NCBI GenBank assembly: GCA_019347575.1
Contig: JAHWKY010000017.1
Coordinates: 1-64,000, forward strand
DNA from: Actinomycetota bacterium
GTDB taxonomy: Bacteria > Actinomycetota > Nitriliruptoria > Nitriliruptorales > Nitriliruptoraceae
Direction of reading: 5' to 3'
DNA length: 64,000 bases
The position numbers and the translations under genes are program-made. Below, piece by piece: positions 23,019 to 36,470 of the stretch. The notes under the pieces were generated by a model that did not search any database, was not told where the DNA came from, and was given only the letters and a program-made list of their open reading frames with translations. Position 1 is the stretch's first letter. The number at the start of each line of letters is the position of its first letter.

Positions 23019-23459
23019 ATGTCGGACACCAAGGCGCACCGTCTCGCGGCGGCCCTCGACGAGTTCATCCGCAGCTCACCGGACGTCGAGGCTGCGGCGG
23101 TGGTCTCGTTCGACGGTCTTCCGATGGCGAGCGCACTGCCGCCCGAGATGGAGGAGGACCGGCTCGGGGCGATGTCCGCCGCCCTGCTCTCGCTCGGGGA
23201 ACAGGCGGCGATCGGCCTGGGACGCGGTCAGCTGAACCAGGTGTTCGTCGAGGGCGAGCACGGGTTCGTGTTCCTCATGTCGGCCAAGGACGAGGCCGTC
23301 CTCGCGGCGGTGGCGCGCCGGACCGCCAAGATCGGCTTCATGCTCTTCGAGATGCGGCGTGCAGCCGCACGCATCGGAGACCTGCTCATGGAAGGACGCG
23401 GCGACACGGACGTCTACCCGGATGTGCCGGACACCGCCGCGGAAGCTGCCTGGCAGTGA
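23019..23459 (+). CDS. Roadblock/LC7-domain protein (MglB/CvnB-like)
   Basis: A 146-residue protein of the roadblock fold; such proteins act as partners or GTPase-activating proteins of small bacterial GTPases. The motif VEAAAVVSFDGLPMASALP is the fold signature, followed by the helix LGAMSAALLSLGEQAAIGLG and the strand FVFLMSAKDEAVLAAVA. ATG 23019 was chosen for the strong AGAGGAGG ribosome site 8 bp upstream. It heads a cluster with a DUF4388 protein, a Ras-like GTPase and pilus motors. This resembles a Streptomyces conservon (CvnB, CvnD) or the MglAB module, without a histidine kinase or DUF742 gene. Confidence 0.88.
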   Translation: MSDTKAHRLAAALDEFIRSSPDVEAAAVVSFDGLPMASALPPEMEEDRLGAMSAALLSLGEQAAIGLGRGQLNQVFVEGEHGFVFLMSAKDEAVLAAVARRTAKIGFMLFEMRRAAARIGDLLMEGRGDTDVYPDVPDTAAEAAWQ

Positions 23460-23500
23460 CCGAACCACCTCGCATCGACGACCGCAGCAGGGGGTGACGT

Positions 23501-24667
23501 GTGCTCGAGGGGACGCTCGAGAGCTTCACCCTGCCGGACATCTTCCAACTGCTCGCCTTCACGAAGAAGACGGGGTGCCTGCACCTCCAGCGTGACAGCG
23601 CGACGGGAGAGGTCTACTTCCGCGACGGTCAGGTGTACTTCGCGGTCTCCACGACGGGGCGGATGGCCCTCGGGAAGCGGCTCGTCGGGGCGGGGATGGT
23701 CGCGACCGACCAGCTCGAGAGGGCGCTGGAGAAGCAGCAGGACGACGCCTCCCGCGGCCGCGCACTGCGGCTGGGCCAGATCCTCGTCAAGGAGGGCGTG
23801 CTCGACGCCGAGACGCTCGAGACGTTCGTCCGCGAGCAGGTCCAGGATGCCGTCTTCGACCTGATGCGGTGGTCGAACGGCAGCTTCCAGTTCGACACCG
23901 AGGGCGAGGACGCCGTGATCGACGAGCCGACCGAGCTCGCCGCGTCGGTCGAGAACCTCATCATGGAGGGCTCCCGCCGCCTCGAGGAGTGGCACGCCGT
24001 CCGCAAGAAGATCCCGTCGATGGATGCGACCGTGGCCATCGCCCCGTCGCCGACCGAGGCAGGCGTGGAGGTGAGCCTGAAGCCGGAGGAGTGGCGGCTA
24101 CTCACCCTCGTGGACGGGCGGCGCACGGTCCACGATCTCGTCGAGCTCGCCGGGCAGGGCCAGTTCGCGACCTGCAAGCTGCTGTACGGCATGGTCGGTG
24201 CGGGGATGCTCGAGGTGCGCGACGTGGAGACCGAGGGGCCGTCATCGGTCGCTGCCATGCTCCAGCAACAGGATCTGCTGCGCCGCGTCGAGAGCGGTGA
24301 GCCGATCGACAGGGCAGTAGCGCCTCCTCGGGGCACGACAGCGACTGTGGTAGGAACCGAGTCGCCGGACGTCGACGAGGAACCCGAGACCTCCGAGGAG
24401 CCCGAGGTCGCGGACGTCTCCGACGAGGTCGAGGAGGCCCCGGCTACCGGACCCGAAGCTGCCGACGACTCGGATGTGCAGGTGGACGAGCAGCCCACGG
24501 TCGCGACAGCGGACGAACGGCCTGTCACGCCCCAGCCCCTCACCGCGAAGCCCTCCGCTGTGCGCAGCAACGGAGGCGGATCCGAGGAAAGCGAGCGCCT
24601 CGGTACCGACCCCACGATCGACGCCGATCTCGTGCGGCGCCTGATCGAGGGCGTCAGGGGGCTGTGA
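23501..24667 (+). CDS. DUF4388 (PATAN-like) domain protein
   Basis: A 388-residue cytoplasmic protein. Residues 1-55 fit the DUF4388 start ([42 protein letters not shown]). They are followed by two copies of a helical module resembling the GspE/PilB N-terminal domain ([20 protein letters not shown] and [20 protein letters not shown]). A winged-helix-like segment occupies about 185-240 and an acidic, Glu/Asp/Pro-rich disordered tail fills 270-350. DUF4388 proteins occur with GTPases, response regulators and motility genes in several phyla. It sits between roadblock and GTPase genes and overlaps the latter by 4 bp. An adaptor role is inference. Confidence 0.85.
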
Positions 24668-25263
24668 TGACGCGACGCACCAGACGCGGCAACCCCCGGA
24701 CCGTCAAGGTCGTGGTCACCGGGCCGTTCGGGGCGGGCAAGACGACCTTCATCCAGACCATCTCCGAGATCACGGTCCTGTCGACCGAGCGACAGGTCAG
24801 CGATCACACGCGCAAGATGAAGGAGCAGACCACCGTCGCGATGGACTTCGGCCGCATCACCGTGGCGGCGGACCTGTCCATCTACCTGTTCGGCACCCCC
24901 GGCCAGGAACGCTTCGACTTCATGTGGGAGATCCTCGCCGAGGGCATGCTCGGTTTCGTGCTGATGGTGGACGTGCAGCGGGATGAGTCGCTCGACGAGG
25001 CCAGGCGCATCCTCGAGTTCTTCACCGATATCGCCCAGGTGCCCTTCATCGTCGCTGCCAACAAGGTCGAGGGCGACGCCGAAGGGACCGTCGACGAGGT
25101 CCGACGACGCCTCGAGATCCCCGATGGCGTGGAGGTCGTCGCGGTTGACGCGCGTGAGCGCGACGATGTCAAGATGGCCCTCGTGACCCTTCTGCACGCG
25201 GTCCTGCGTCACCTCAGCGGTGAACCGAGCGAAGCCGCGGCTCCGCTGGCGCAGGAGGCCTGA
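24664..25263 (+). CDS. Ras-like small GTPase (MglA/CvnD-type)
   Basis: A 199-residue P-loop GTPase without a membrane segment. G1 is GPFGAGKT at residues 20-27, G3 is FGTPGQERF at 76-84, and G4 reads NKVE at 133-136, with Glu where Asp normally recognises guanine. The [18 protein letters not shown] stretch is typical of the bacterial GTPase group next to roadblock proteins. The start is GTG 24664 (GTGA overlap); ATG 24667 is equally possible. pilB follows after one base. In Myxococcus, MglA with its roadblock partner MglB sets the active pilus pole; an equivalent job here is inference from context. Confidence 0.88.
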
Positions 25264-25264
25264 G

Positions 25265-26932
25265 GTGCGCCAGCTCGGGCAGATCCTGATCGAGGAAGGG
25301 CTGATCAGCGACGAGCAGCTCCGCACCGCGCAGGAGATCCAGCAACAGCACGGTCGGTCGCTGGGGCGGGTGCTCATCGACCGCGGTCACGTCACTGAGC
25401 GCGACCTCGTACGCGCACTGGCGACCCAGATCGGCATGGACTTCGTCGACCTGTCCGACGAAGAGGTCGATGCCACAGCGGTGACCGCGATCAGCGAAAC
25501 CCTCGCTCGGCGCTACAACGCTCTGCCCATCGGCTACGAGAACGGCCGTCTGGTCGTCGCCATGAGCGATCCGGCGAACGTCTTCGCGCTCGACGACATC
25601 CGCGCGATCACTGGCCTCGACGTGAAGTCGGTCGTCGCCACCAAGGAGGACATCGCCGACGCCATCAAGCGCTACCACCGGATGTCGGACGAGATCGAGG
25701 AGATGGCCCAGGACATGGGCGAGGCCGCCGGTGAGCCTCACGAGCTCGCGGACATCAAGACGGTCACGGACGAGGCTCCGATCGTCAAGTTCGTCAACCT
25801 GCTGATCACCCAGGCGGTCAACGACGGGGCGTCGGACATCCATATCGAGCCGGCTGAACGCGATATGCGCGTCCGGTTCCGCATCGACGGCGTCCTGCAC
25901 GAGATCATGCACTCGCCCAAGAGCATCCAGTCGGGCGTCACCTCGCGCCTCAAGATCATGGCCGAGATCGACATCGCCGAGCGTCGCATCCCCCAGGACG
26001 GCCGCATCGGGCTGGTCGTCGGCGGCAAGCAGATCGACCTGCGTGTGTCGACGCTGCCGACGGTGTACGGCGAGAAGCTCGTGATGAGGATCCTGGACAA
26101 GACCTCGATCCTGCTCGAGCTGAAGGACCTGGGCTTCCTCGAGGAGAACTACGCCCGCTTCGAGAGCTCGTTCCGCAAGCCCTACGGCATGATCCTGGTC
26201 ACGGGTCCGACCGGTTCGGGGAAGTCGACCACGCTCTACGCCACCCTGAACGTCATCAACCGTCCCGAGGTCAACATCGTCACGACCGAGGATCCGGTCG
26301 AGTACCGCCTCGCCGGCGTCAACCAGGTCCAGGTCAACGTCAAGGCGGGCCTGACGTTCGCCTCGGCACTGCGCTCGATCCTGCGTCAGGACCCCGACAT
26401 CGTGCTCGTGGGTGAGATGCGTGACCGCGAGACCGCCCACATCGGCATCGAGGCAGCCCTGACGGGCCACCTGGTCCTGTCGACCCTGCACACCAACGAC
26501 GCGCCCTCAGCGGTGACGAGGCTCACCGAGATGGGCATCGAGCCCTTCCTGGTGGGGTCCGCGATCGACGCGGTCCTCGCCCAGCGTCTGGCGCGACGGC
26601 TGTGCAGCAAGTGCAAGGAGCCGTACCGACCCGAGATGGCGACACTCCAGGAAGCCGGTCTGGATGCCGATACCGTCGAACAGAGGCCCGAGGTGTTCCG
26701 CGCCGTCGGGTGCAAGGCGTGCGGGAACACCGGCTACAAGGGCCGACTGGCGCTGCACGAGGTGATGAGCGTCACGGAGGACATCGAGCGGCTGACCGTC
26801 GAGCGGGCGTCGTCGGAGGAGATCAAACGCGTGGCTATCAGTCAGGGTATGCGTACCCTGAGGGAGGACGGTCTCGCGAAGGTCCTGCTCGGGATGACGA
26901 CCATCGAAGAGGTCGCTCGCGTCGTCGTCTGA
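25265..26932 (+). CDS. pilB: Type IV pilus extension ATPase PilB
   Basis: Hexameric secretion-type ATPase that powers pilus assembly. It has 555 residues. The N-terminal MshEN-type domain carries two repeats (RQLGQILIEEGLISDEQL and RSLGRVLIDRGHVTERDL); related domains bind cyclic di-GMP in some homologues. The motor domain has Walker A GPTGSGKS at 314-321, Asp box TTEDPVEYRLAG, Walker B RQDPDIVLVGEMRD, and a four-cysteine zinc site from C447 (CSKC, later GCKACG) that separates PilB from PilT. GTG 25265 was chosen for the AGGAGG site that overlaps the GTPase stop region. Confidence 0.95.
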   Translation: MRQLGQILIEEGLISDEQLRTAQEIQQQHGRSLGRVLIDRGHVTERDLVRALATQIGMDFVDLSDEEVDATAVTAISETLARRYNALPIGYENGRLVVAMSDPANVFALDDIRAITGLDVKSVVATKEDIADAIKRYHRMSDEIEEMAQDMGEAAGEPHELADIKTVTDEAPIVKFVNLLITQAVNDGASDIHIEPAERDMRVRFRIDGVLHEIMHSPKSIQSGVTSRLKIMAEIDIAERRIPQDGRIGLVVGGKQIDLRVSTLPTVYGEKLVMRILDKTSILLELKDLGFLEENYARFESSFRKPYGMILVTGPTGSGKSTTLYATLNVINRPEVNIVTTEDPVEYRLAGVNQVQVNVKAGLTFASALRSILRQDPDIVLVGEMRDRETAHIGIEAALTGHLVLSTLHTNDAPSAVTRLTEMGIEPFLVGSAIDAVLAQRLARRLCSKCKEPYRPEMATLQEAGLDADTVEQRPEVFRAVGCKACGNTGYKGRLALHEVMSVTEDIERLTVERASSEEIKRVAISQGMRTLREDGLAKVLLGMTTIEEVARVVV

Positions 26933-26959: not shown

Positions 26960-28555
26960 ATGGCACAGGGACTCGGCGAGATCCTCGTCCAGCAGGGAGT
27001 GATCGACGAGGGACAGCTCGCGACCGCCACCGAGCACCAGCAGAGCAGCGGCGGGACGCTGGCGAAGTCCTTGATCGAGCTCGGGCTGGCCACCGAGATC
27101 GACCTCGTTCGGGCGTTGGCAGCCCGCCTGGGGATGCCCTACGCCGAGGTGTCGGGCGGGGCGGTGGACCCCACAGCGGCCCAGATGGTGTCCCGTGCGC
27201 TGGCGGAGGAGCTCGAGGCGCTCCCCGTCAGGTTCGGCGACGGGGACGAGCTCGTCGTCGCCGTGGCTGACCCCAAGAACACCCGTGCCAAGGAGAAGAT
27301 CGAGGCCGAGACGGGCCTGGCGGTGGTCCTGGCCCTGTCCGCGCGGCGCCAGCTCCACGACGCCATCGCGCACCTCACCATGGACGACGCCGGGCCCCTG
27401 CAGGTCGCCGAGGCGCCCTCACGGGCAGCGACGGAGCCGATGGCGCAGCCCGGCGGCCGGATCACCATGGCCGAGGAGCGCCCGACGATCGACCTCGACG
27501 AGCTGCTCGTCGCCCTGGTCGAGCGGGGCGGATCCGACCTGCACCTCACCAGCGGCATCCCGCCGACGATCCGGGTCCACGGCGACCTGACGCCGCTGGA
27601 CGAGTACCCGATGGTCACGCCGGACGAGCTGCGCAAGATGCTGTACTCGATCATGACCCAGAAGCAGCGCGAGAAGTTCGAGAACGAGCTCGAGCTGGAC
27701 ATGTCCTACGCGGTGCCGGGCATGGCCCGCTACCGCGTCAACGTGTTCATGCAGCGCGACTCGGTCGGATCGGTGATGCGTGTCATCCCGTTCGAGATCA
27801 AGCCGCTCGACGACCTCGGTGTCCCCAGCCAGGTCTCCAACTTCGCCTACATGCCGCGCGGGTTCGTGCTGGTCACGGGTCCGACCGGCTCCGGCAAGTC
27901 GACCACGCTCGCCTCGATGATCGACCTGATCAACACCAACCGCCCGGTGCACATCATGACGGTCGAGGACCCGATCGAGTTCCTCCACCGCCACAAGCGC
28001 TCGGTGGTCAACCAGCGCGAGGTCGGCACCGACACCTACAGCTTCGCCGCGGCGCTCAAGCACGTCCTGCGCCAGGACCCGGACGTGATCCTGGTCGGCG
28101 AGATGCGTGACCTCGAGACCATCCAGATCGCGCTGACCGCGGCCGAGACCGGCCACCTCGTCTTCGGGACGCTGCACACCCAGGATGCCCCGCAGACGAT
28201 CGACCGCGTCATCGACGTGTTCCCTCCCCACCAGCAGGAGCAGATCCGCGTGCAGCTCGCCGGGGCGCTCCAGGGCGTCGTGTGTCAGCAGCTGCTGAAG
28301 ACCTCGGACGGGGCGGGGCGTACGGTCGCCTGCGAGGTCATGGTCGCCACACCCGGTGTCCGCAACCTGATCCGCGAGGGCAAGACCCACCAGATCTACT
28401 CCGCCATCCAGGCGGGGGCGAAGCACGGCATGGTCGCGATGGACCAGTCGCTGGCCACGCTCGTCAAGCGTGGCACGGTGACCTACGACGAGGCCGCCGA
28501 GAACTGTAGCAACATGAACGAGTTCAACCGCCTCGTCGGGCGCGGGACGAGCTAA
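26960..28555 (+). CDS. pilT: PilT retraction ATPase with N-terminal PilB-type (MshEN) domain
   Basis: The C-terminal 350 residues are a PilT: Walker A GPTGSGKS at 307-314, TVEDPIEFLH, RQDPDVILVGEMRD, and GVRNLIREGK at about 466, equivalent to the AIRNLIRE retraction motif. The PilB zinc cysteines are absent. Residues 1-150 are an MshEN-type domain (GLGEILVQQGVIDEGQL, TLAKSLIELGLATEIDL), joined by a Pro/Ala linker. Ordinary PilT has about 350-370 residues and no such domain, so at 531 residues this is a fused architecture. ATG 26960 fits the domain start. pilC follows after 12 bp. Retraction activity is inferred from the motifs. Confidence 0.93.
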   Translation: MAQGLGEILVQQGVIDEGQLATATEHQQSSGGTLAKSLIELGLATEIDLVRALAARLGMPYAEVSGGAVDPTAAQMVSRALAEELEALPVRFGDGDELVVAVADPKNTRAKEKIEAETGLAVVLALSARRQLHDAIAHLTMDDAGPLQVAEAPSRAATEPMAQPGGRITMAEERPTIDLDELLVALVERGGSDLHLTSGIPPTIRVHGDLTPLDEYPMVTPDELRKMLYSIMTQKQREKFENELELDMSYAVPGMARYRVNVFMQRDSVGSVMRVIPFEIKPLDDLGVPSQVSNFAYMPRGFVLVTGPTGSGKSTTLASMIDLINTNRPVHIMTVEDPIEFLHRHKRSVVNQREVGTDTYSFAAALKHVLRQDPDVILVGEMRDLETIQIALTAAETGHLVFGTLHTQDAPQTIDRVIDVFPPHQQEQIRVQLAGALQGVVCQQLLKTSDGAGRTVACEVMVATPGVRNLIREGKTHQIYSAIQAGAKHGMVAMDQSLATLVKRGTVTYDEAAENCSNMNEFNRLVGRGTS

Positions 28556-28567
28556 GGGAGACCAACC

Positions 28568-29791
28568 ATGGCCAGCAAGTTCAGCTACCAGGTCCGCGAC
28601 CGTGCCGGCAAGCTCATCTCGGGTGAGCTCGAGGCCGACTCGCAGGGAGCGGTGGCCCAGAAACTGCGCAGCATGGGCTACTCGCCCGTGCGCATCGACC
28701 AGGTCAGGGAGTCGAGCCTCCAGAAGGAGCTGACGATCCCCGGCTTCGCCCCCAAGGTGAAGCTCAAGGACCTGGCCATCTTCAGCCGCCAGTTCGCCAC
28801 GATGATCAACTCCGGCCTGTCGCTGCTGCGCGCCTTGACGATCCTCGCCGAGCAGACCGAGAACAAGGAGCTCGCGCGCATCGTCGACGAGGTCCGCAAC
28901 CAGGTCGAGGGCGGCCAGTCGCTGTCAGTGGCGATGGCCGAGCACGACGCCTTCCCCAAGCTCTACATCGCCATGGTGCGCGCCGGCGAGACCGCCGGGA
29001 TGCTCGACCAGGTGCTGCTGCGCATCGCCGACACGCTCGAGAAGGACGTCGCACTGCGCGGGAAGATCAAGGCCGCCCTGACCTACCCCGTGATCGTGTT
29101 CATCCTGGCGATCCTGCTGACCGCGGTCATGCTGATCTTCATCGTGCCGGTGTTCGTGGGGATGTTCGAGGACCTCGGCGGTGAGCTGCCGCTGCCGACC
29201 AAGGTCCTGATGGCGGCGTCCGACTTCGTCAGCTCACCGATCGGGCTGGTGACCCTGTTCGTGTTGCCCATCGCGGCGTGGCAGGCGTACAAGCGCATCC
29301 GCGCCACCGAGCGAGGCAGGTACCAACTCGATCGCATCAAGCTGAGTGCGCCCGTCTTCGGACCGCTGTTCCACAAGATCGCGCTGTCGAGGTTCAGCCG
29401 CAACCTCGGGACGCTCCTCAAGGCCGGCGTCCCCATCCTCCAGGCGCTCGAGATCACGGCGGACACGGTCAACAACGGTCCCATCTCCGACGCCGTCAGG
29501 GACGTCCAGGAGTCGGTGCGTGAGGGTGAGTCCATCGCGACCCCCCTCGCCGACCACGAGGTCTTCCCGCCCATGGTCGTGCAGATGATCGCGGTGGGGG
29601 AGGAGACCGGCGCGGTCGACACGATGCTCGAGAAGATCGCCGAGTTCTACGACCAGGAGGTCGAGTCGACCACCGAGTCGCTGACGGCCCTGATGGAGCC
29701 GCTCATGATCGCCGTGCTGGGTGGGATCGTCGGCGCGATGGTCATCGCCCTCTACATGCCGATCTTCAAGGTCATCGACCTGGTCGAGTAG
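28568..29791 (+). CDS. pilC: Type IV pilus platform protein PilC
   Basis: Inner-membrane GspF-family protein of 407 residues on which the motors act. It has two GspF repeats: FSRQFATMINSGLSLLRAL with MVRAGETAGMLDQVL, and FSRNLGTLLKAGVPILQALEI with MIAVGEETGAVDTMLEKIAEFYD. Three membrane segments are visible, at about 178-200, 215-237 and 380-402. The ATG start has AAGGGAG 6 bp upstream. It is the last gene of the first pilus transcription unit before the pilA leader. Confidence 0.95.
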   Translation: MASKFSYQVRDRAGKLISGELEADSQGAVAQKLRSMGYSPVRIDQVRESSLQKELTIPGFAPKVKLKDLAIFSRQFATMINSGLSLLRALTILAEQTENKELARIVDEVRNQVEGGQSLSVAMAEHDAFPKLYIAMVRAGETAGMLDQVLLRIADTLEKDVALRGKIKAALTYPVIVFILAILLTAVMLIFIVPVFVGMFEDLGGELPLPTKVLMAASDFVSSPIGLVTLFVLPIAAWQAYKRIRATERGRYQLDRIKLSAPVFGPLFHKIALSRFSRNLGTLLKAGVPILQALEITADTVNNGPISDAVRDVQESVREGESIATPLADHEVFPPMVVQMIAVGEETGAVDTMLEKIAEFYDQEVESTTESLTALMEPLMIAVLGGIVGAMVIALYMPIFKVIDLVE

Positions 29792-30027: not shown

Positions 30028-30435
30028 ATGCTCCGCAAGCTCCGCGAGAGCCTCGACAAGCGCGAAGAGGGCTTCACGCTGATCGAGCTCCTGGTCGTGG
30101 TCATCATCATCGGCATCCTGGCCGCGATCGCCATCCCCGTGTTCCTCAACCAGCGCGAGAAGGCGTGGGACTCGGCCGCCAAGTCCGACCTACGCAACGC
30201 CGCCGTCATCCAGGAAGGCATCTTCACGGAGACCGGCGCCTACGCAGTGGACCAGGCAGGCCTCGAGTTCCAGGGCTTCAACGTCTCCGACAACATCGTC
30301 TTCTCCGTCGTGTCCGCGGGTACCAGCCCGACGGGCTACTGCATGAGCGCGTCGCACACTTCATCCGCGACGGTCTGGACGTACGACAGCGCCGACGGTA
30401 AGCCGAAGAACACCGCCTGCGTCAACACCTACTGA
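30028..30435 (+). CDS. pilA: Major type IV pilin PilA
   Basis: Prepilin of 135 residues. A 15-residue positively charged leader ends in Gly15; cleavage before Phe16 leaves FTLIELLVVVIIIGILAAIA with the conserved Glu5. The N-terminal helix continues to VFLNQREKAWDSAAKSDLRNA. The small globular head has two cysteines (in GYCMSAS and NTACVNTY) that could form the C-terminal disulfide loop. It is the shortest of the four prepilins, has its own leader and is followed by a strong terminator-like hairpin, all fitting a highly expressed major subunit. PilD for its processing is encoded next. Confidence 0.95.
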   Translation: MLRKLRESLDKREEGFTLIELLVVVIIIGILAAIAIPVFLNQREKAWDSAAKSDLRNAAVIQEGIFTETGAYAVDQAGLEFQGFNVSDNIVFSVVSAGTSPTGYCMSASHTSSATVWTYDSADGKPKNTACVNTY

Positions 30436-30520: not shown

Positions 30521-31327
30521 ATGTCCAACGTTCTGGCCACGGCGCTAGCGGCCGTGATCGGCCTGCTGCTCGGCTCGTTCGCGAACGTCGCCATCCACCG
30601 CTGGCCGCGGGGCGGCTCGGTCGTCACGCCCCGCGAGTCGTACTGTCCGCACTGCCAGCAGCCGATCCGTGCGCGAGACAACATCCCCGTCGTCTCCTGG
30701 CTGCTGCTGCGGCGCCGATGCCGTCACTGCGGTGAGCCCATAGCCGCCCGGTACCCGGCAGTGGAGGGGACCACCGCGCTGCTGTTCACAGCCACGGCGG
30801 CCGTGCACGGCGCCACGTGGCTCCTCCCGGCGCTGCTCGTGTTCGTGTGGGCGTTGGTGGTCGCGACCGCCATCGATCTCGAGCACCGCATCATCCCCAA
30901 CAAGCTCACCTACCGGCTGCCCCTGGCCCTGCTGCCGCTGCTCGTCCTGGCCGCTGCACTCGATGACGCCTGGACCGATCTCCTCCGTGCCCTGGTCGCC
31001 GGGCTGGCGTTGCCGACCGCGATGCTGATGATGTCGGAGCTGTTCCGCCTGCTACGTGGGCAGTCCGGCTTCGGGATGGGGGACGTCAAACTCGCAGCGT
31101 CCATCGGTCTGGTCGTTGGCTACCTCGGGGGATGGGAACTCGTGGTGTTCTTCTACGGCACCATGGCCGCCGGGGTGGTCATCGTCGGTGCCCTCATCGC
31201 GGCGGGGCGGGTCAAACTGGCGTCGCGCATCCCCTTCGGCCCCTACCTCGCGCTGGGGTCACTGGTCGCTGTCCTGGCGGGGGAACCCGCCGCGGGGGTG
31301 CTCGAGCGATGGCTCGGGGTCCCGTAG
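30521..31327 (+). CDS. pilD: Prepilin peptidase PilD
   Basis: Membrane aspartic protease of 268 residues that cleaves prepilin leaders and usually N-methylates the new N-terminus. The cytoplasmic zinc site is complete: C42/C45 (CPHC) and C67/C70 (CRHC). The catalytic aspartates are D119 in AIDLEHRIIPNKLT and D188 in GFGMGDVKLAA. About seven hydrophobic segments are visible. The gene lies 85 bp after pilA, behind the hairpin, and closes the first pilus segment. Confidence 0.95.
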   Translation: MSNVLATALAAVIGLLLGSFANVAIHRWPRGGSVVTPRESYCPHCQQPIRARDNIPVVSWLLLRRRCRHCGEPIAARYPAVEGTTALLFTATAAVHGATWLLPALLVFVWALVVATAIDLEHRIIPNKLTYRLPLALLPLLVLAAALDDAWTDLLRALVAGLALPTAMLMMSELFRLLRGQSGFGMGDVKLAASIGLVVGYLGGWELVVFFYGTMAAGVVIVGALIAAGRVKLASRIPFGPYLALGSLVAVLAGEPAAGVLERWLGVP

Positions 31328-31539: not shown

Positions 31540-31749
31540 GTGGGCGCGGAGCGGCCGGGCGCGGACCGGCTCCTGACGGTCGCCGAGGTGGCCGCCCTCC
31601 TGCGCGTGTCCAACATGACCGTCTACCGGCTGATCAAGGGCGGCACGCTCGCGGCCATCCGGGTGGGCAAGAACTACCGCATCCGCCAGAGCGACCTCGA
31701 CGCGTACCTCGCGGCCGGGTCGGTCCACGCCGAAGAGGATGAGGGCTGA
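31540..31749 (+). CDS. Small excisionase/BldC-like helix-turn-helix protein
   Basis: A 69-residue DNA-binding protein starting at GTG 31540. LLTVAEVAALLRVSNMTVYR is the winged HTH start and IRVGKNYRIRQSDLDAYL the wing and helix of MerR/excisionase-like folds. It resembles actinobacterial proteins such as Rv0500A and BldC. These act as transcription factors, not as phage excisionases, and no integrase is nearby. Its stop overlaps the pilM start by one base (TGATG), so it is co-transcribed with pilMNO. Likely a regulator of pilus genes or of its own promoter; inference from position. Confidence 0.82.
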   Translation: MGAERPGADRLLTVAEVAALLRVSNMTVYRLIKGGTLAAIRVGKNYRIRQSDLDAYLAAGSVHAEEDEG

Positions 31750-32789
31750 TGGCGAAGAGCGCGGTCGGTCTCGATATCGGCAGCAGCGGCGTGCAGGTGA
31801 GCCAGGTCACCGTCACCCGCGGTCAGCCGACCCTCGTCAACTTCGGCGGTGTGGCCCTCCCCGAGGGTGCCGTCCGTGAGGGCGAGATCATCGACGTCTC
31901 CGCGGTCAGCGCCGCCGTCAAGCAGCTCATGAGCGACGCCCGCATCAAGGAGAAGAACGCCTGGCTGGGTGTCGCCAACCAGCGCGTCGTCGTGCGCCAG
32001 ATCGACCTGCCCTACATGGAGGAGCAGGAGCTGCGCGACTCCCTGCGCTTCCAGGTGCAGGAGTACATCCCGATCCCCGTCGAGGACGCCGAACTCGACT
32101 ACCACCGTCTGGATGAGTACACCGAGGGTGACCAGCGCATGCAGCGCCTGCTCCTCGTTGCCGCCCACCGCGACATGGTGCAGTCCCACATCGCGGCCGC
32201 TTCGGACGCCGGGTTGCGTCCCGCCGGTGTCGATCTCAACTCGTTCGCGATCCTCCGAGCGCTGGCCAACGAGCGTTCGGTGTCACAGGGCAGCGAGGTC
32301 CTCATCGATATCGGTGCTGGCGTGACCAACATCGTCGTGCACGAGAACGGCACCCCCCGCTTCGTACGGATCCTGGTGCTCGGAGGGTCGGACATCACCG
32401 AGGCGCTGGCGTCGGGACTCGGCATCGCCCACGCCGACGCGGAAGCGCTGAAGATCCAGACGGGGCTCAGCGGTGCCGGGGACGAGGGTGCCCGTCGCAT
32501 CATCGACGACCGCGCCAACCAGTTCGTCGACGAGGCGCGCGGCTCGCTCGACTACTACCAGGCCCAGACCGGCAGTGCCCGTATCGGACGCGTCGTGCTC
32601 TCGGGCGGCGGCTCGAAGCTTGCCGGACTACCCGAGCGTCTGGCGAACGCGGTGCGGCTGCCGGTCGAGGTCGGTCGGCCGCTAGACCACCTCCCCGTGA
32701 AGGGGACCTCCTACAGCCGCGATGATCTCGCCGACGTCGAACCCATCCTGGCGACCTCCATCGGCCTGGCGCTGGGAGGTGTCGAATGA
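31749..32789 (+). CDS. pilM: Pilus assembly protein PilM (actin-like ATPase)
   Basis: Cytoplasmic actin-fold protein of 346 residues that binds the N-terminal tail of PilN. VGLDIGSSGVQVSQV is the phosphate-1 loop; EVLIDIGAGVTNIVVHENG is phosphate-2; VVLSGGGSKLAGLPERL is the adenosine motif. LRFQVQEYIPIPVEDAELDY is a PilM-specific segment. It is translationally linked to the HTH gene upstream and to pilN downstream (ATGA overlap). Confidence 0.94.
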   Translation: MAKSAVGLDIGSSGVQVSQVTVTRGQPTLVNFGGVALPEGAVREGEIIDVSAVSAAVKQLMSDARIKEKNAWLGVANQRVVVRQIDLPYMEEQELRDSLRFQVQEYIPIPVEDAELDYHRLDEYTEGDQRMQRLLLVAAHRDMVQSHIAAASDAGLRPAGVDLNSFAILRALANERSVSQGSEVLIDIGAGVTNIVVHENGTPRFVRILVLGGSDITEALASGLGIAHADAEALKIQTGLSGAGDEGARRIIDDRANQFVDEARGSLDYYQAQTGSARIGRVVLSGGGSKLAGLPERLANAVRLPVEVGRPLDHLPVKGTSYSRDDLADVEPILATSIGLALGGVE

Positions 32790-33400
32790 GCGTTCGCGTC
32801 AACCTCCTCCCACGCGAGGTCGAGGAACGCAACGTCGCCCGGCGCCAGCGCGGCCTCCTGGCTGTCGTGGGGCTCGTCGTGGTCGTGTTGCTCGGGCTCC
32901 TCTACTGGATGCAGATAGGGCGCGTGAACGACAAGCGGGACGAGCTGGCGCAGGCGGAGCAGTCCCGTGACCAGCTCCAGGCCGAGGTCCAGGCCCTCCA
33001 AGCGTTCGCGGACCTCGAGACCGAACTCGCCGCGAAGAACGAACTCATCGCATCCGCGATGGCGCTGGAGATCTCGGTCGCGGGGTTGCTCCAGGATGCA
33101 GCGGCCGTCACGCCCTCGGACATGGCGTTCCTCACGCTCTCCGCGACGCTCCAACCGGCCGAGGAGGAGGGGACGAGCTTCGGTCAGGTCACGGCCTCCG
33201 CCGAGACGCTGCTCGGCCACGCCCCTGGCGTCGAGCGCGTGCTGCTGTCCTTCGACAAGGTCGCTGCCTTCCGGGAGGTCTTCTTCTCCTCCTCGAGTCT
33301 CGATGAGGTCGACATCACGACGTTCACGTTCGACTTCTTCCTCGGACCCGAAGCGCTCACTGGGCGGTACCTGGCGGGACTCCCGGAGGAACTGCGATGA
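32786..33400 (+). CDS. pilN: Pilus assembly protein PilN
   Basis: Bitopic membrane protein of 204 residues. The cytoplasmic tail RVNLLPREVEERN (residues 4-16) is the conserved PilM-binding motif. One membrane helix spans about 28-48, followed by a coiled-coil region and a small alpha/beta domain on the outer face. It forms a platform heterodimer with PilO in characterised systems. ATGA overlaps on both sides couple it to pilM and pilO. Confidence 0.92.
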   Translation: MSVRVNLLPREVEERNVARRQRGLLAVVGLVVVVLLGLLYWMQIGRVNDKRDELAQAEQSRDQLQAEVQALQAFADLETELAAKNELIASAMALEISVAGLLQDAAAVTPSDMAFLTLSATLQPAEEEGTSFGQVTASAETLLGHAPGVERVLLSFDKVAAFREVFFSSSSLDEVDITTFTFDFFLGPEALTGRYLAGLPEELR

Positions 33401-34050
33401 ACCGTCAGGCCGTCCTCGTCGCCGTGCTCGTGACCGCCCTCGTCGTTGTCGCGTACTACCTGTTCCTGCTCAAGCCGAAGATGGATGAGGTCGGCGAGGT
33501 GGAGGAGGAGATCGCCACGGTCCAGCAGCAAGAAGCGCAGCTGCGCTCCCGTCTGGCCAGTCTCGAAGAGGTCCGCGCACGCGCTCCGGAGATCGAGGCC
33601 GCCATCGCCGCGACCACAGCCGTGCTACCGACCGAACCCAACCTGCCCGCTGCGCTCCGACAGTTGCAGCTCGCCGCTGACGAGGCAGGCGCCCGGCTCA
33701 TCACGGTCGCTCCGGCCCGTCCGGCTCAGGTTGAAGGAGCCGACTTCGGTGTGATCAACGTCAGCGTGAGCGTCGAGGGTGGCTACTTCCAGATCGTGGA
33801 CTTCTTCCGGAGGGTCGAGGACCCCTCGATCTCGCCCCGCGCGATCCGGTGGCAAACGGTGGCGTTGGCCGTGGCTGAGTACCCGACGCTGACGTTGAGT
33901 GCCACTGGTCAGATGTTCGTCGTTGGACCTCCCACGACTGCCGATGACGCCGCCACCGAACCTGCCCCCGGGGCTTCCCCCGGCGTGGTGGAAGAGGGGC
34001 AAGCGGAGCTGGAGGGTGACATCGACGCTGAGGTGGAGGACGCCGCATGA
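33397..34050 (+). CDS. pilO: Pilus assembly protein PilO
   Basis: A 217-residue bitopic protein, the partner of PilN. The membrane helix lies at residues 5-25, followed by a coiled coil (EVEEEIATVQQQEAQLRSRL) and a ferredoxin-like domain with VEGGYFQIVDFFRRVED, typical of PilO. The acidic Ala/Glu/Pro-rich tail after residue 180 (about 37 residues) is longer than in Gram-negative PilO. It overlaps pilN and the following gene by 4 bp. Confidence 0.92.
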   Translation: MNRQAVLVAVLVTALVVVAYYLFLLKPKMDEVGEVEEEIATVQQQEAQLRSRLASLEEVRARAPEIEAAIAATTAVLPTEPNLPAALRQLQLAADEAGARLITVAPARPAQVEGADFGVINVSVSVEGGYFQIVDFFRRVEDPSISPRAIRWQTVALAVAEYPTLTLSATGQMFVVGPPTTADDAATEPAPGASPGVVEEGQAELEGDIDAEVEDAA

Positions 34051-34793: not shown

Positions 34794-34856
34794 ACGGTCC
34801 GATAACGGTTAAGAGCGCGCTGGCGCATGCCTGCACGCGCGTTACAGGAGGCAAGG

Positions 34857-36470
34857 GTGCTGAGCCGCTTTCGAGTCGCTCGCTTGTGGCGGGAGCGTGA
34901 CGCCGAGGATGGTCTCTCCCTCATCGAGATGATGATGGCGATCCTCATCCTGTCGGTGGCCATCATGGCCCTGGCGTCCGCGGCTCTCGCGAGCCTCCAG
35001 TCCCTGCGGGTCTCACGGGATCGTCAGAACGCAACCCAGCTGGCGTCCTCGGTCATCGAGGATGCGCGGTCGCTCTCGTGGTCGACGATCGCGCTAGACG
35101 CAGCCTCCTACACGGGACCGGCGGACTTCGAGGGCGAGCCTGTCCTGACGAGCGCCAGTGGAGGGGTGCCACCGGTGGTCGTGGAGGGACCCCTGACCGC
35201 GACGACGTACGTGACCTGGGTCCTGGCACCGGACGGCAGTAACCCCATGAGCGAGAAGCGCGTCACGACCATCGTCACGTGGGATGACCCCGCGGCGGGA
35301 GCGCGAACGGTACGCGAAGCCACTCTCGTGGCTGAGGCACGTCGAGGCCTCCCCTTGCCGGCGTTCGCGCTGGATCCGGCGACGCTGTCCGAGACCGGCG
35401 CCGAGGGCGAGGTTGTCTGCTTCGACCACTTCCTGACCAACATCGGCGAGAAGGACAGCTACAGCTGGCAGCTCTACGTCACCAACCTCACGGGTGACCT
35501 GGTTGCGGGTTCGTTCACCACCCGGTCGGTCGATGAGCCGGGCACCGGCGTCGTGAGCCGGCAAGGCTTCAGCGTTCCGGGCGGACTCCCCGGTGCGAGC
35601 TGGTTCGGCTGGGCGCGGATCGGAGACCCGCTCGAGCCGATGACCGATGTCACCGCGGACCTTCGCCCCGATAGCCCCGCCCCTGTGGCGCGTCGAGAGT
35701 CGGTGCCACTGACGCTGTGCTACACGCCGCAGGACTCCCTCGGCAACCTGATCGCCCTCGATCCCGAGCCCACCTTCACGGTCAGGGTCCACTCGGCGTT
35801 CGACGAGAACGTCCTGCACGACGTCGAGAACTCCATCGTCGCGGCCGGGACCGCCAGCGGCACCTCGCTGTTCCTCCACCATCCGGAGAAGAACGGCGAA
35901 CCGAACCGGAACCTCTCGCCCCGCCTCTACACGATGAGCACAGCCGGACCGCAGTACACCAACGTCTTGTTGACCTACGACCGCTGTGGCAGCGGTCCCG
36001 CGGCCGACCAGGACTGCAACCCGGGCCTGCGTCTGCGACCCGGCAACACGGCCGACGTCGCGATGTGGGATCACCAGTTCACGGCGGCGTCGCAGGTCTC
36101 CGACACCGCGAACCTCACCCTCTACGTCACCACCGAGGCCGCGGTGACCGGAAGTCCAGGGCCGGCGACGCTCGTCTTCGACGTGCTGCTCGAGCGCCTC
36201 GACGCCTCGCGGAACTTCATCGACACGGTGGCCAGCGGCTCCCTCAGCGTGCCGTTCGACGGCACTTCCCCGGATTGGACCCGCGCGACCGTCTCGCTCC
36301 CGGTGACCGCCGGCAGCGTCACCTTCGCGCCGAACGACTTCCTGCGTCTCAGGCTGGCCTGTGCGAGCTCGAGCACGACCAACTGCCACGTGCATTACGA
36401 CGTCGACGATCCGTCGGACGCTGCCGACCGGCTGATGTCGAACCTGAACATCTCGGTGAGCACGTCGTGA
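34857..36470 (+). CDS. Minor prepilin with large C-terminal domain (PilV-like)
   Basis: A 537-residue prepilin-like protein. GTG 34857 was preferred over the in-frame ATG 34827 because CAGGAGG lies 5 bp before it. The leader ends at Gly19 and cleavage would leave LSLIEMMMAILILSVAIMAL with Glu5 conserved. After the pilin helix there is a very large, beta-rich, cysteine-containing extracellular region of about 480 residues with no recognised catalytic motif. Its size suggests a tip or adhesive role, as proposed for other large minor pilins. It is coupled to the next prepilin gene. Confidence 0.85.
   Translation: MLSRFRVARLWRERDAEDGLSLIEMMMAILILSVAIMALASAALASLQSLRVSRDRQNATQLASSVIEDARSLSWSTIALDAASYTGPADFEGEPVLTSASGGVPPVVVEGPLTATTYVTWVLAPDGSNPMSEKRVTTIVTWDDPAAGARTVREATLVAEARRGLPLPAFALDPATLSETGAEGEVVCFDHFLTNIGEKDSYSWQLYVTNLTGDLVAGSFTTRSVDEPGTGVVSRQGFSVPGGLPGASWFGWARIGDPLEPMTDVTADLRPDSPAPVARRESVPLTLCYTPQDSLGNLIALDPEPTFTVRVHSAFDENVLHDVENSIVAAGTASGTSLFLHHPEKNGEPNRNLSPRLYTMSTAGPQYTNVLLTYDRCGSGPAADQDCNPGLRLRPGNTADVAMWDHQFTAASQVSDTANLTLYVTTEAAVTGSPGPATLVFDVLLERLDASRNFIDTVASGSLSVPFDGTSPDWTRATVSLPVTAGSVTFAPNDFLRLRLACASSSTTNCHVHYDVDDPSDAADRLMSNLNISVSTS

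Follow-up and report, generated by a model that had tools for sequence, protein, structure and literature searches.

Introduction

The closest described counterparts of the locus analysed here are the conservons (CvnA-D, and MfpE-D-C-B of mycobacteria), the MglA-MglB pair of Myxococcus and the PATAN response regulators of cyanobacteria. In the mfp conservon, the Roadblock protein MfpD acts as a GAP for the GTPase MfpB (PMC9769811), while the DUF742 protein MfpC has been reported as a GEF (Commun Biol 2024, as cited in PMC13343842) and CvnC9 has been described to bind CvnD9 (Komatsu et al., as cited in PMC8510531). Synechocystis PilB is a binding partner of PATAN regulators (Han et al. 2022, as cited in PMC10519157), and binding of PixE to PilB1 is documented (PMC7690835). 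An association of Roadblock, PATAN and GTPase genes has been noticed as occasional for MglA Group 1/5 genes (Wuichet and Sogaard-Andersen 2014; Makarova 2006), and MglB genes near PATAN genes were remarked upon in 2006 and 2014 (PMC4316618); the accessible portions of these accounts describe no placement in actinobacterial pil loci, no tail and no coupled decay. The control of pilus extension in monoderm bacteria is little known, and the signal output of conservons is open.

Here we analysed the window, a stretch of 64,000 nucleotides (contig JAHWKY010000017.1, assembly GCA_019347575.1) from an actinobacterium of the family Nitriliruptoraceae, in which genes for a Roadblock protein, a DUF4388 protein and a small GTPase stand at the head of a type IV pilus (T4P) locus. 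The DUF4388 domain we take to be the PATAN domain, in line with the InterPro equivalence. With the conservons this three-gene block shares the order Roadblock-middle protein-GTPase, a Roadblock homolog of CvnB, a middle protein with a winged helix and a common C-terminal helix, and a GTPase of the GTPGQ type. It differs in having neither a histidine kinase (CvnA; aroE stands upstream) nor a separate DUF742 protein (CvnC), in its PATAN-led middle protein, in a GTPase of a separate clade without NxFD, and in its location in a pil locus. With no kinase, no DUF742 and a separate GTPase clade, three of the four defining features tested are absent, and conservon membership was rejected; the block would function in the manner of a conservon without belonging to that class.

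The Myxococcus system likewise joins a small GTPase to a Roadblock protein and has a link to PilB, whereas its MglA belongs to Group 1 (TVPGQ, intrinsic Arg) and the GTPase of the block carries GTPGQ; no RomR, RomX or SgmX was seen at the block, where the partner is the PATAN protein. The cyanobacterial regulators (PixE, PixG, PilG, TaxP2) share with the block protein a PATAN domain with a helical insertion, PilB binding being known from the literature for the former only, but the block protein has no receiver domain, and its input would be the GTPase and not phosphorylation. Our literature search found no paper on an actinobacterial pil-linked block; within the limits of that search, three points are new: its phylum-wide association with the pil locus, the coupled decay of two of its members, and the tail common to DUF742.

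Layout of the locus and its host genome

The gene order in the window is Roadblock-DUF4388-GTPase-pilB-T-C-A-D-M-N-O (Table 1). The stop codon of the DUF4388 gene overlaps the GTG start of the GTPase gene (24664) by 4 bp, an alternative GTPase start being the ATG at 24667, and the GTG start of pilB lies 1 bp past the GTPase stop. Pfam and TIGR matches and the coordinates thus bear out the initial annotation, which had described a Roadblock-DUF4388-GTPase run into pilB with a 4-bp overlap and a 1-bp gap. All parts of a type IVa pilus looked for were found (PilB, PilT, PilC, pilin, PilD, PilM and PilO), and the protein in the pilN position gave no Pfam match.

Table 1. Features of the G-protein block and the pilus genes that follow it (positions in the window)
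Feature	Position	Strand	Basis
Roadblock/LC7 protein (MglB/CvnB-like)	23019..23459	+	Pfam PF03259 (Robl_LC7) 7e-17
DUF4388 (PATAN) adaptor protein, 388 aa	23501..24667	+	Pfam PF14332 1e-35, residues 3-165
Helical insertion in PATAN (residues 56-113), MshEN/PilB N-terminal c-di-GMP-motif-like	23666..23839	+	NF053729 37.8 bits (cut-off 38)
Winged-helix-like segment (residues about 195-240), comparable to conservon DUF742	24083..24220	+	AF2 secondary structure; hhalign
Acidic disordered linker (residues about 276-372)	24326..24616	+	pLDDT < 50 over most of 276-372
Conserved C-terminal helix, putative GTPase-docking tail common to DUF742	24614..24664	+	DUF742-tail matrix
Ras-like small GTPase, GTPGQ type	24664..25263	+	Pfam Ras/ATP_bind_1-type match; AF2 pLDDT 87, small-GTPase fold
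P-loop GPFGAGKTT of GTPase	24721..24747	+	Sequence motif
G3/switch region of GTPase	24892..24915	+	Degenerate in every Roadblock-less locus
PilB extension ATPase, N-terminal MshEN motif	25265..26932	+	TIGR02538 681 bits (> equivalog cut-off); NF053729 65 bits
PilT-family ATPase, N-terminal MshEN module	26960..28555	+	TIGR01420 490 bits; NF053729 48 bits (cut-off 38)
PilC platform protein	28568..29791	+	T2SSF
Type IV pilin (PilA)	30028..30435	+	N_methyl, TIGR02532
Prepilin peptidase (PilD)	30521..31327	+	Peptidase_A24
pilM, pilN, pilO	31749..34050	+	PilM_2 1e-49; PilO 8e-8; pilN by position only
Minor-pilin-like protein	34827..36470	+	N_methyl 1e-4

Upstream of the block lie alaS, ruvX, mltG (YceG) and aroE, the last directly preceding the Roadblock gene, and the pil set is followed by aroC, aroB, aroQ, a prolidase gene and efp. 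The pil set is therefore housed in a neighbourhood of shikimate genes (20441-43577, between aroE and aroC-aroB-aroQ-pepQ-efp), of which the alaS-mltG-aroE flank is kept across the phylum. The host genome encodes one Roadblock protein, one T4P-type GTPase, two DUF4388 proteins and 15 GGDEF matches. It holds no DUF742 protein (PF05331) and hence no conservon. The second DUF4388 protein, encoded on another contig (L074:7923-9428, minus strand), has MshEN-like motifs and no conserved C-terminal tail; no T4P or block gene was recognised in 19 kb around it.

Distribution of the block

In the class Nitriliruptoria the GTPase was searched in 66 genomes and the neighbourhoods of the matches were then read. 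All T4P-type GTPases (22/22, including the window's own and four degenerate ones) lie in an alaS-mltG-aroE-block-pil locus, with pilB on the same contig for 21 of the 22. The lower-scoring GTPases (L054-L072) lie outside the pil locus and are of the conservon type, since a Roadblock gene adjoins 18 of 19 and the middle protein was DUF742 in all nine tested. PilB was detected in 36 of the 66 genomes; upstream of pilB, these have the full block (15), DUF4388 and GTPase on a truncated contig (1), Roadblock and DUF4388 (2), DUF4388 with a degenerate GTPase (4), DUF4388 alone (4), none of the three (4) or a contig end (6). The block is dispensable, several pilB loci of the class being devoid of part or all of it. 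In one family (f3) minor-pilin genes intervene between the GTPase gene and pilB.

Across the phylum, a strong PilB match was obtained in 204 of 396 genomes sampled. Among 40 pilB loci from many families, 11 carry the full block, three DUF4388 with a degenerate GTPase and four a weak DUF4388 alone. Loci retrieved with the Roadblock profile alone place the block in Nitriliruptoraceae, Coriobacteriia, Solincola/Geothermincola, Acidothermus and Frankiales-type MAGs. Its internal order is constant, whereas its position takes three forms: it stands ahead of pilB, ahead of aroE-pilB or flanked by two pilB genes. In three Frankiales-type MAGs (L149, L154, L155) no pilB was present within 8 kb of the block, pilB-like genes being found elsewhere in these genomes. 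The block is widespread in Actinomycetota, and because identical order and strand recur there, it is not a chance arrangement.

Beyond the phylum, no GTPase or pil genes were recognised beside the Roadblock gene in 27 loci retrieved with the Roadblock profile (Chloroflexota, archaea and others). DUF4388 and GTPase genes are adjacent in all 13 Chloroflexota loci in which the GTPase was found, away from pil genes and with Roadblock elsewhere, and no PilB was detected in those genomes by a search that lacked a positive control within that set. Hence the DUF4388-GTPase pair is not pilus-specific everywhere and is older or broader than its link to pili, its partner in Chloroflexota being something else. 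Of the earlier proposal of a switch dedicated to pili, what stands is that the block belongs to the T4P locus in Actinomycetota; the dedication does not extend to the Chloroflexota pairs.

The GTPase and its coupled decay with Roadblock

The G3 motif of the window GTPase is GTPGQ, its switch I region reads TTVAMDFG with no Arg beside the G2 Thr, and its G4 is NKVE, so that NxFD is absent. As judged from these motifs, it is a GTPase of the GTPGQ kind (MglA Groups 2-5, as this motif is defined in PMC4316618), coupled to an MglB/Roadblock gene. MglA Group 1, the Myxococcus type, requires TVPGQ and an Arg next to the G2 Thr and was ruled out, the window protein having neither. Membership of the conservon Group 2 was ruled out likewise by the missing NxFD and by the GTPase tree, in which the T4P GTPases fall outside a single conservon-type clade with support 100; L072, on a long branch, is the one outlier. 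The Roadblock profile matches the solved structures of CvnB5 (3leq) and Rv3364c/MfpD (9hef) and, weakly, MglB (6h5b); by analogy with MfpD, the Roadblock protein is likely the GAP of the GTPase.

At T4P loci with a Roadblock gene, P-loop, switch I Thr and GTPGQ are intact in 54 of 55 GTPases, the exception (L105) reading GTPGLKRF. At those that have no Roadblock gene, the switch regions of the GTPase are degenerate in eight of eight cases (one of which, L222, is cut by a contig end), with forms such as GTPTRDRF, GTAGHPRL, GVSNAIAY, GTQGMEGF or GLPGDESF, or with the P-loop lost. In three of these cases Roadblock is absent genome-wide. We call these regions degenerate and not catalytically dead because MfpB Q89A shows unaltered GTP hydrolysis (PMC9769811), so that loss of the Gln alone is no proof of inactivity. 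The PilB tree points to three independent losses of Roadblock, all in the same direction; a sign test on them gives p 0.25 and cannot reach significance with three events, and the Fisher value of 2e-9 takes no account of shared ancestry. Since the switch regions degenerate where Roadblock is missing, the two proteins probably work together.

The degenerate GTPase of two close genomes has a dN/dS of 0.11; two control pairs with intact GTPases gave 0.03-0.06, and the value for L117/L222, largely saturated, was left out. This ratio indicates purifying selection, which suggests that the degenerate protein is retained for some function independent of switching. Such pseudo-GTPases, found where Roadblock is missing, amount to naturally occurring mutants of the switch.

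Domains and tail of the DUF4388 protein

AlphaFold2, run on 13 orthologs, places a confidently modelled PATAN domain, which bears a helical insertion, ahead of a winged-helix-like segment; a disordered linker then leads to a C-terminal helix (375-387) of low confidence. In the window protein, pLDDT is mostly 80-96 over the PATAN part. Foldseek returned no match at E <= 0.001 for the whole model, with GATOR/KICSTOR among the hits, and a convincing match for the insertion only. The insertion profile matches N-terminal structures of PilF, PilB and MshE, and the insertion superposes on c-di-GMP-bound Thermus PilF-GSPIIB with an rmsd of 1.2 over 60 columns, at an E of merely 0.78. Its second motif fits the published relaxed MshEN pattern (two 24-residue RLGxx... 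motifs), and its first has Ala in place of Arg and a longer spacer. The MshEN motif is lost in many Nitriliruptoria orthologs, and c-di-GMP binding as the main function of the insertion was dropped on this ground.

Pfam found nothing in the winged-helix half of the window protein. Profiles of the corresponding segment of DUF4388 orthologs and of DUF742 align in hhalign with a probability of 85% and an E of 6e-6, a moderate match that could partly reflect general helix-turn-helix similarity. The last 17 residues of the DUF4388 protein form a conserved stretch whose distance to the C-terminus is constant, and the DUF742 proteins in the middle of conservons bear a C-terminal peptide of the same kind. 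With a matrix built from 16 DUF742 tails only, the window tail scores 12.8, and none of 922 other C-termini taken from these loci exceeds 1.7. The 99th percentile of these C-termini was exceeded by 45 of the 53 DUF4388 tails that neighbour an intact GTPase, by 11 of 13 Chloroflexota tails and by three of 14 where no GTPase was seen (all counts uncorrected for phylogeny). Two loci (L075, L184) keep the tail although no GTPase was found there.

From these sequence comparisons, the C-terminal helix is probably a GTPase-docking tail common to the DUF4388 protein and DUF742, which suggests one docking rule for two families. A role of the tail as a PilB-binding peptide, considered first, is less likely, as Chloroflexota in which PilB was undetected keep the tail and GTPase-less loci mostly lose it. 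The initial annotation had the DUF4388 protein replace both the kinase and DUF742 parts of a conservon; it does take the place of the DUF742 protein, and this view is refined by its own DUF742-like winged helix and tail. A middle protein that combines the conservon DUF742 tail with a domain of the PilB-binding type offers a concrete output to test.

Proposed role and alternative explanations

We consider it reasonably probable that the three genes encode a G-protein switch resembling a conservon and coupled to the type IV pilus motor. Directly observed are gene order and its conservation, the coupled decay and the sharing of the DUF742 tail. As in the mfp conservon, Roadblock would act as a GAP and turn the GTPase off, and the DUF4388 protein would be a second partner of the GTPase, probably as GEF or effector, and would hold it via its own winged-helix segment and the C-terminal helix on the flexible linker. 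The PATAN domain with its PilB/MshE-like insertion would serve as the output, touching PilB or the pilus base as its cyanobacterial relatives suggest, and pilus extension might be licensed or blocked in step with the state of the GTPase. C-di-GMP may be a second input, since the MshEN motifs of both PilB and PilT score above the curated NF053729 cut-off and the genome has its 15 GGDEF matches. The sign of the effect, and spatial as opposed to on/off control, are not readable from sequence. As a tentative extension, which we hold as conceivable but not probable, PATAN-headed and DUF742 proteins would be two forms of one class of GTPase partner docking by the same C-terminal helix, the PATAN form passing the GTPase state straight to PilB in actinobacterial pili and Roadblock-less lineages keeping a frozen pseudo-GTPase as a fixed motor scaffold.

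A spatial switch in the Myxococcus sense, which would recruit PilB to one pole or site and set direction, has precedents in MglA, SgmX and SopA, which bring PilB to the pole in Myxococcus (PMC11580455), and in cyanobacterial PATAN regulators, which steer PilB localisation (PMC10519157). However, the GTPase belongs to a different MglA group, the operon genes read include no recognisable polarity factor such as RomR or SgmX, and gene content cannot separate spatial from plain on/off control, so that this form of the switch appears rather doubtful. Less likely is a general signalling module merely housed in the pil locus, serving envelope sensing or, via the winged helix, transcription control, with a target other than the pilus motor. 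The winged-helix-like segment of the adaptor would suit such a module, Streptomyces conservons, which have related proteins, regulate gene expression (PMC8510531), and the Chloroflexota keep their DUF4388-GTPase pair where PilB went undetected. Against this, binding of PATAN to PilB is documented, the block remains part of the pil locus across Actinomycetota though its exact position varies, and even the three Frankiales-type MAGs with no pilB within 8 kb of the block have pilB-like genes in the genome.

It is also quite improbable that c-di-GMP reception for the pilus is the chief task of the DUF4388 protein, with the GTPase in a secondary part. The persistence of DUF4388 at loci that have no GTPase or Roadblock, the resemblance of the insertion to the c-di-GMP-bound PilF domain, the fit of its second motif and the 15 GGDEF matches of the genome would all accord with such a receptor, but the window protein carries only part of the motif, and many orthologs of the class have lost it. 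The G-protein switch acting on the pilus motor is the reading we prefer.

Further observations on related loci

One uninterrupted frame (L041:10147-12237, minus strand) joins Roadblock and DUF4388 and is possibly a natural fusion; it was set aside as evidence, being seen in one genome only, where a missing stop codon is possible. The PilT frames of coriobacterial-type loci are shorter (about 370 aa), and the MshEN module on PilT therefore seems to be lineage-specific. Two pilB genes flank the G-protein block in L113, L122, L123, L126, L152, L153 and others. A second, divergent set of Roadblock, GTPase and DUF4388 genes adjoins the block on the opposite strand in L147 and L157. Three tandem Roadblock genes precede DUF4388 in the T4P loci L100, L130, L164 and L215-L220, the last of the three alone closely matching the usual Roadblock.
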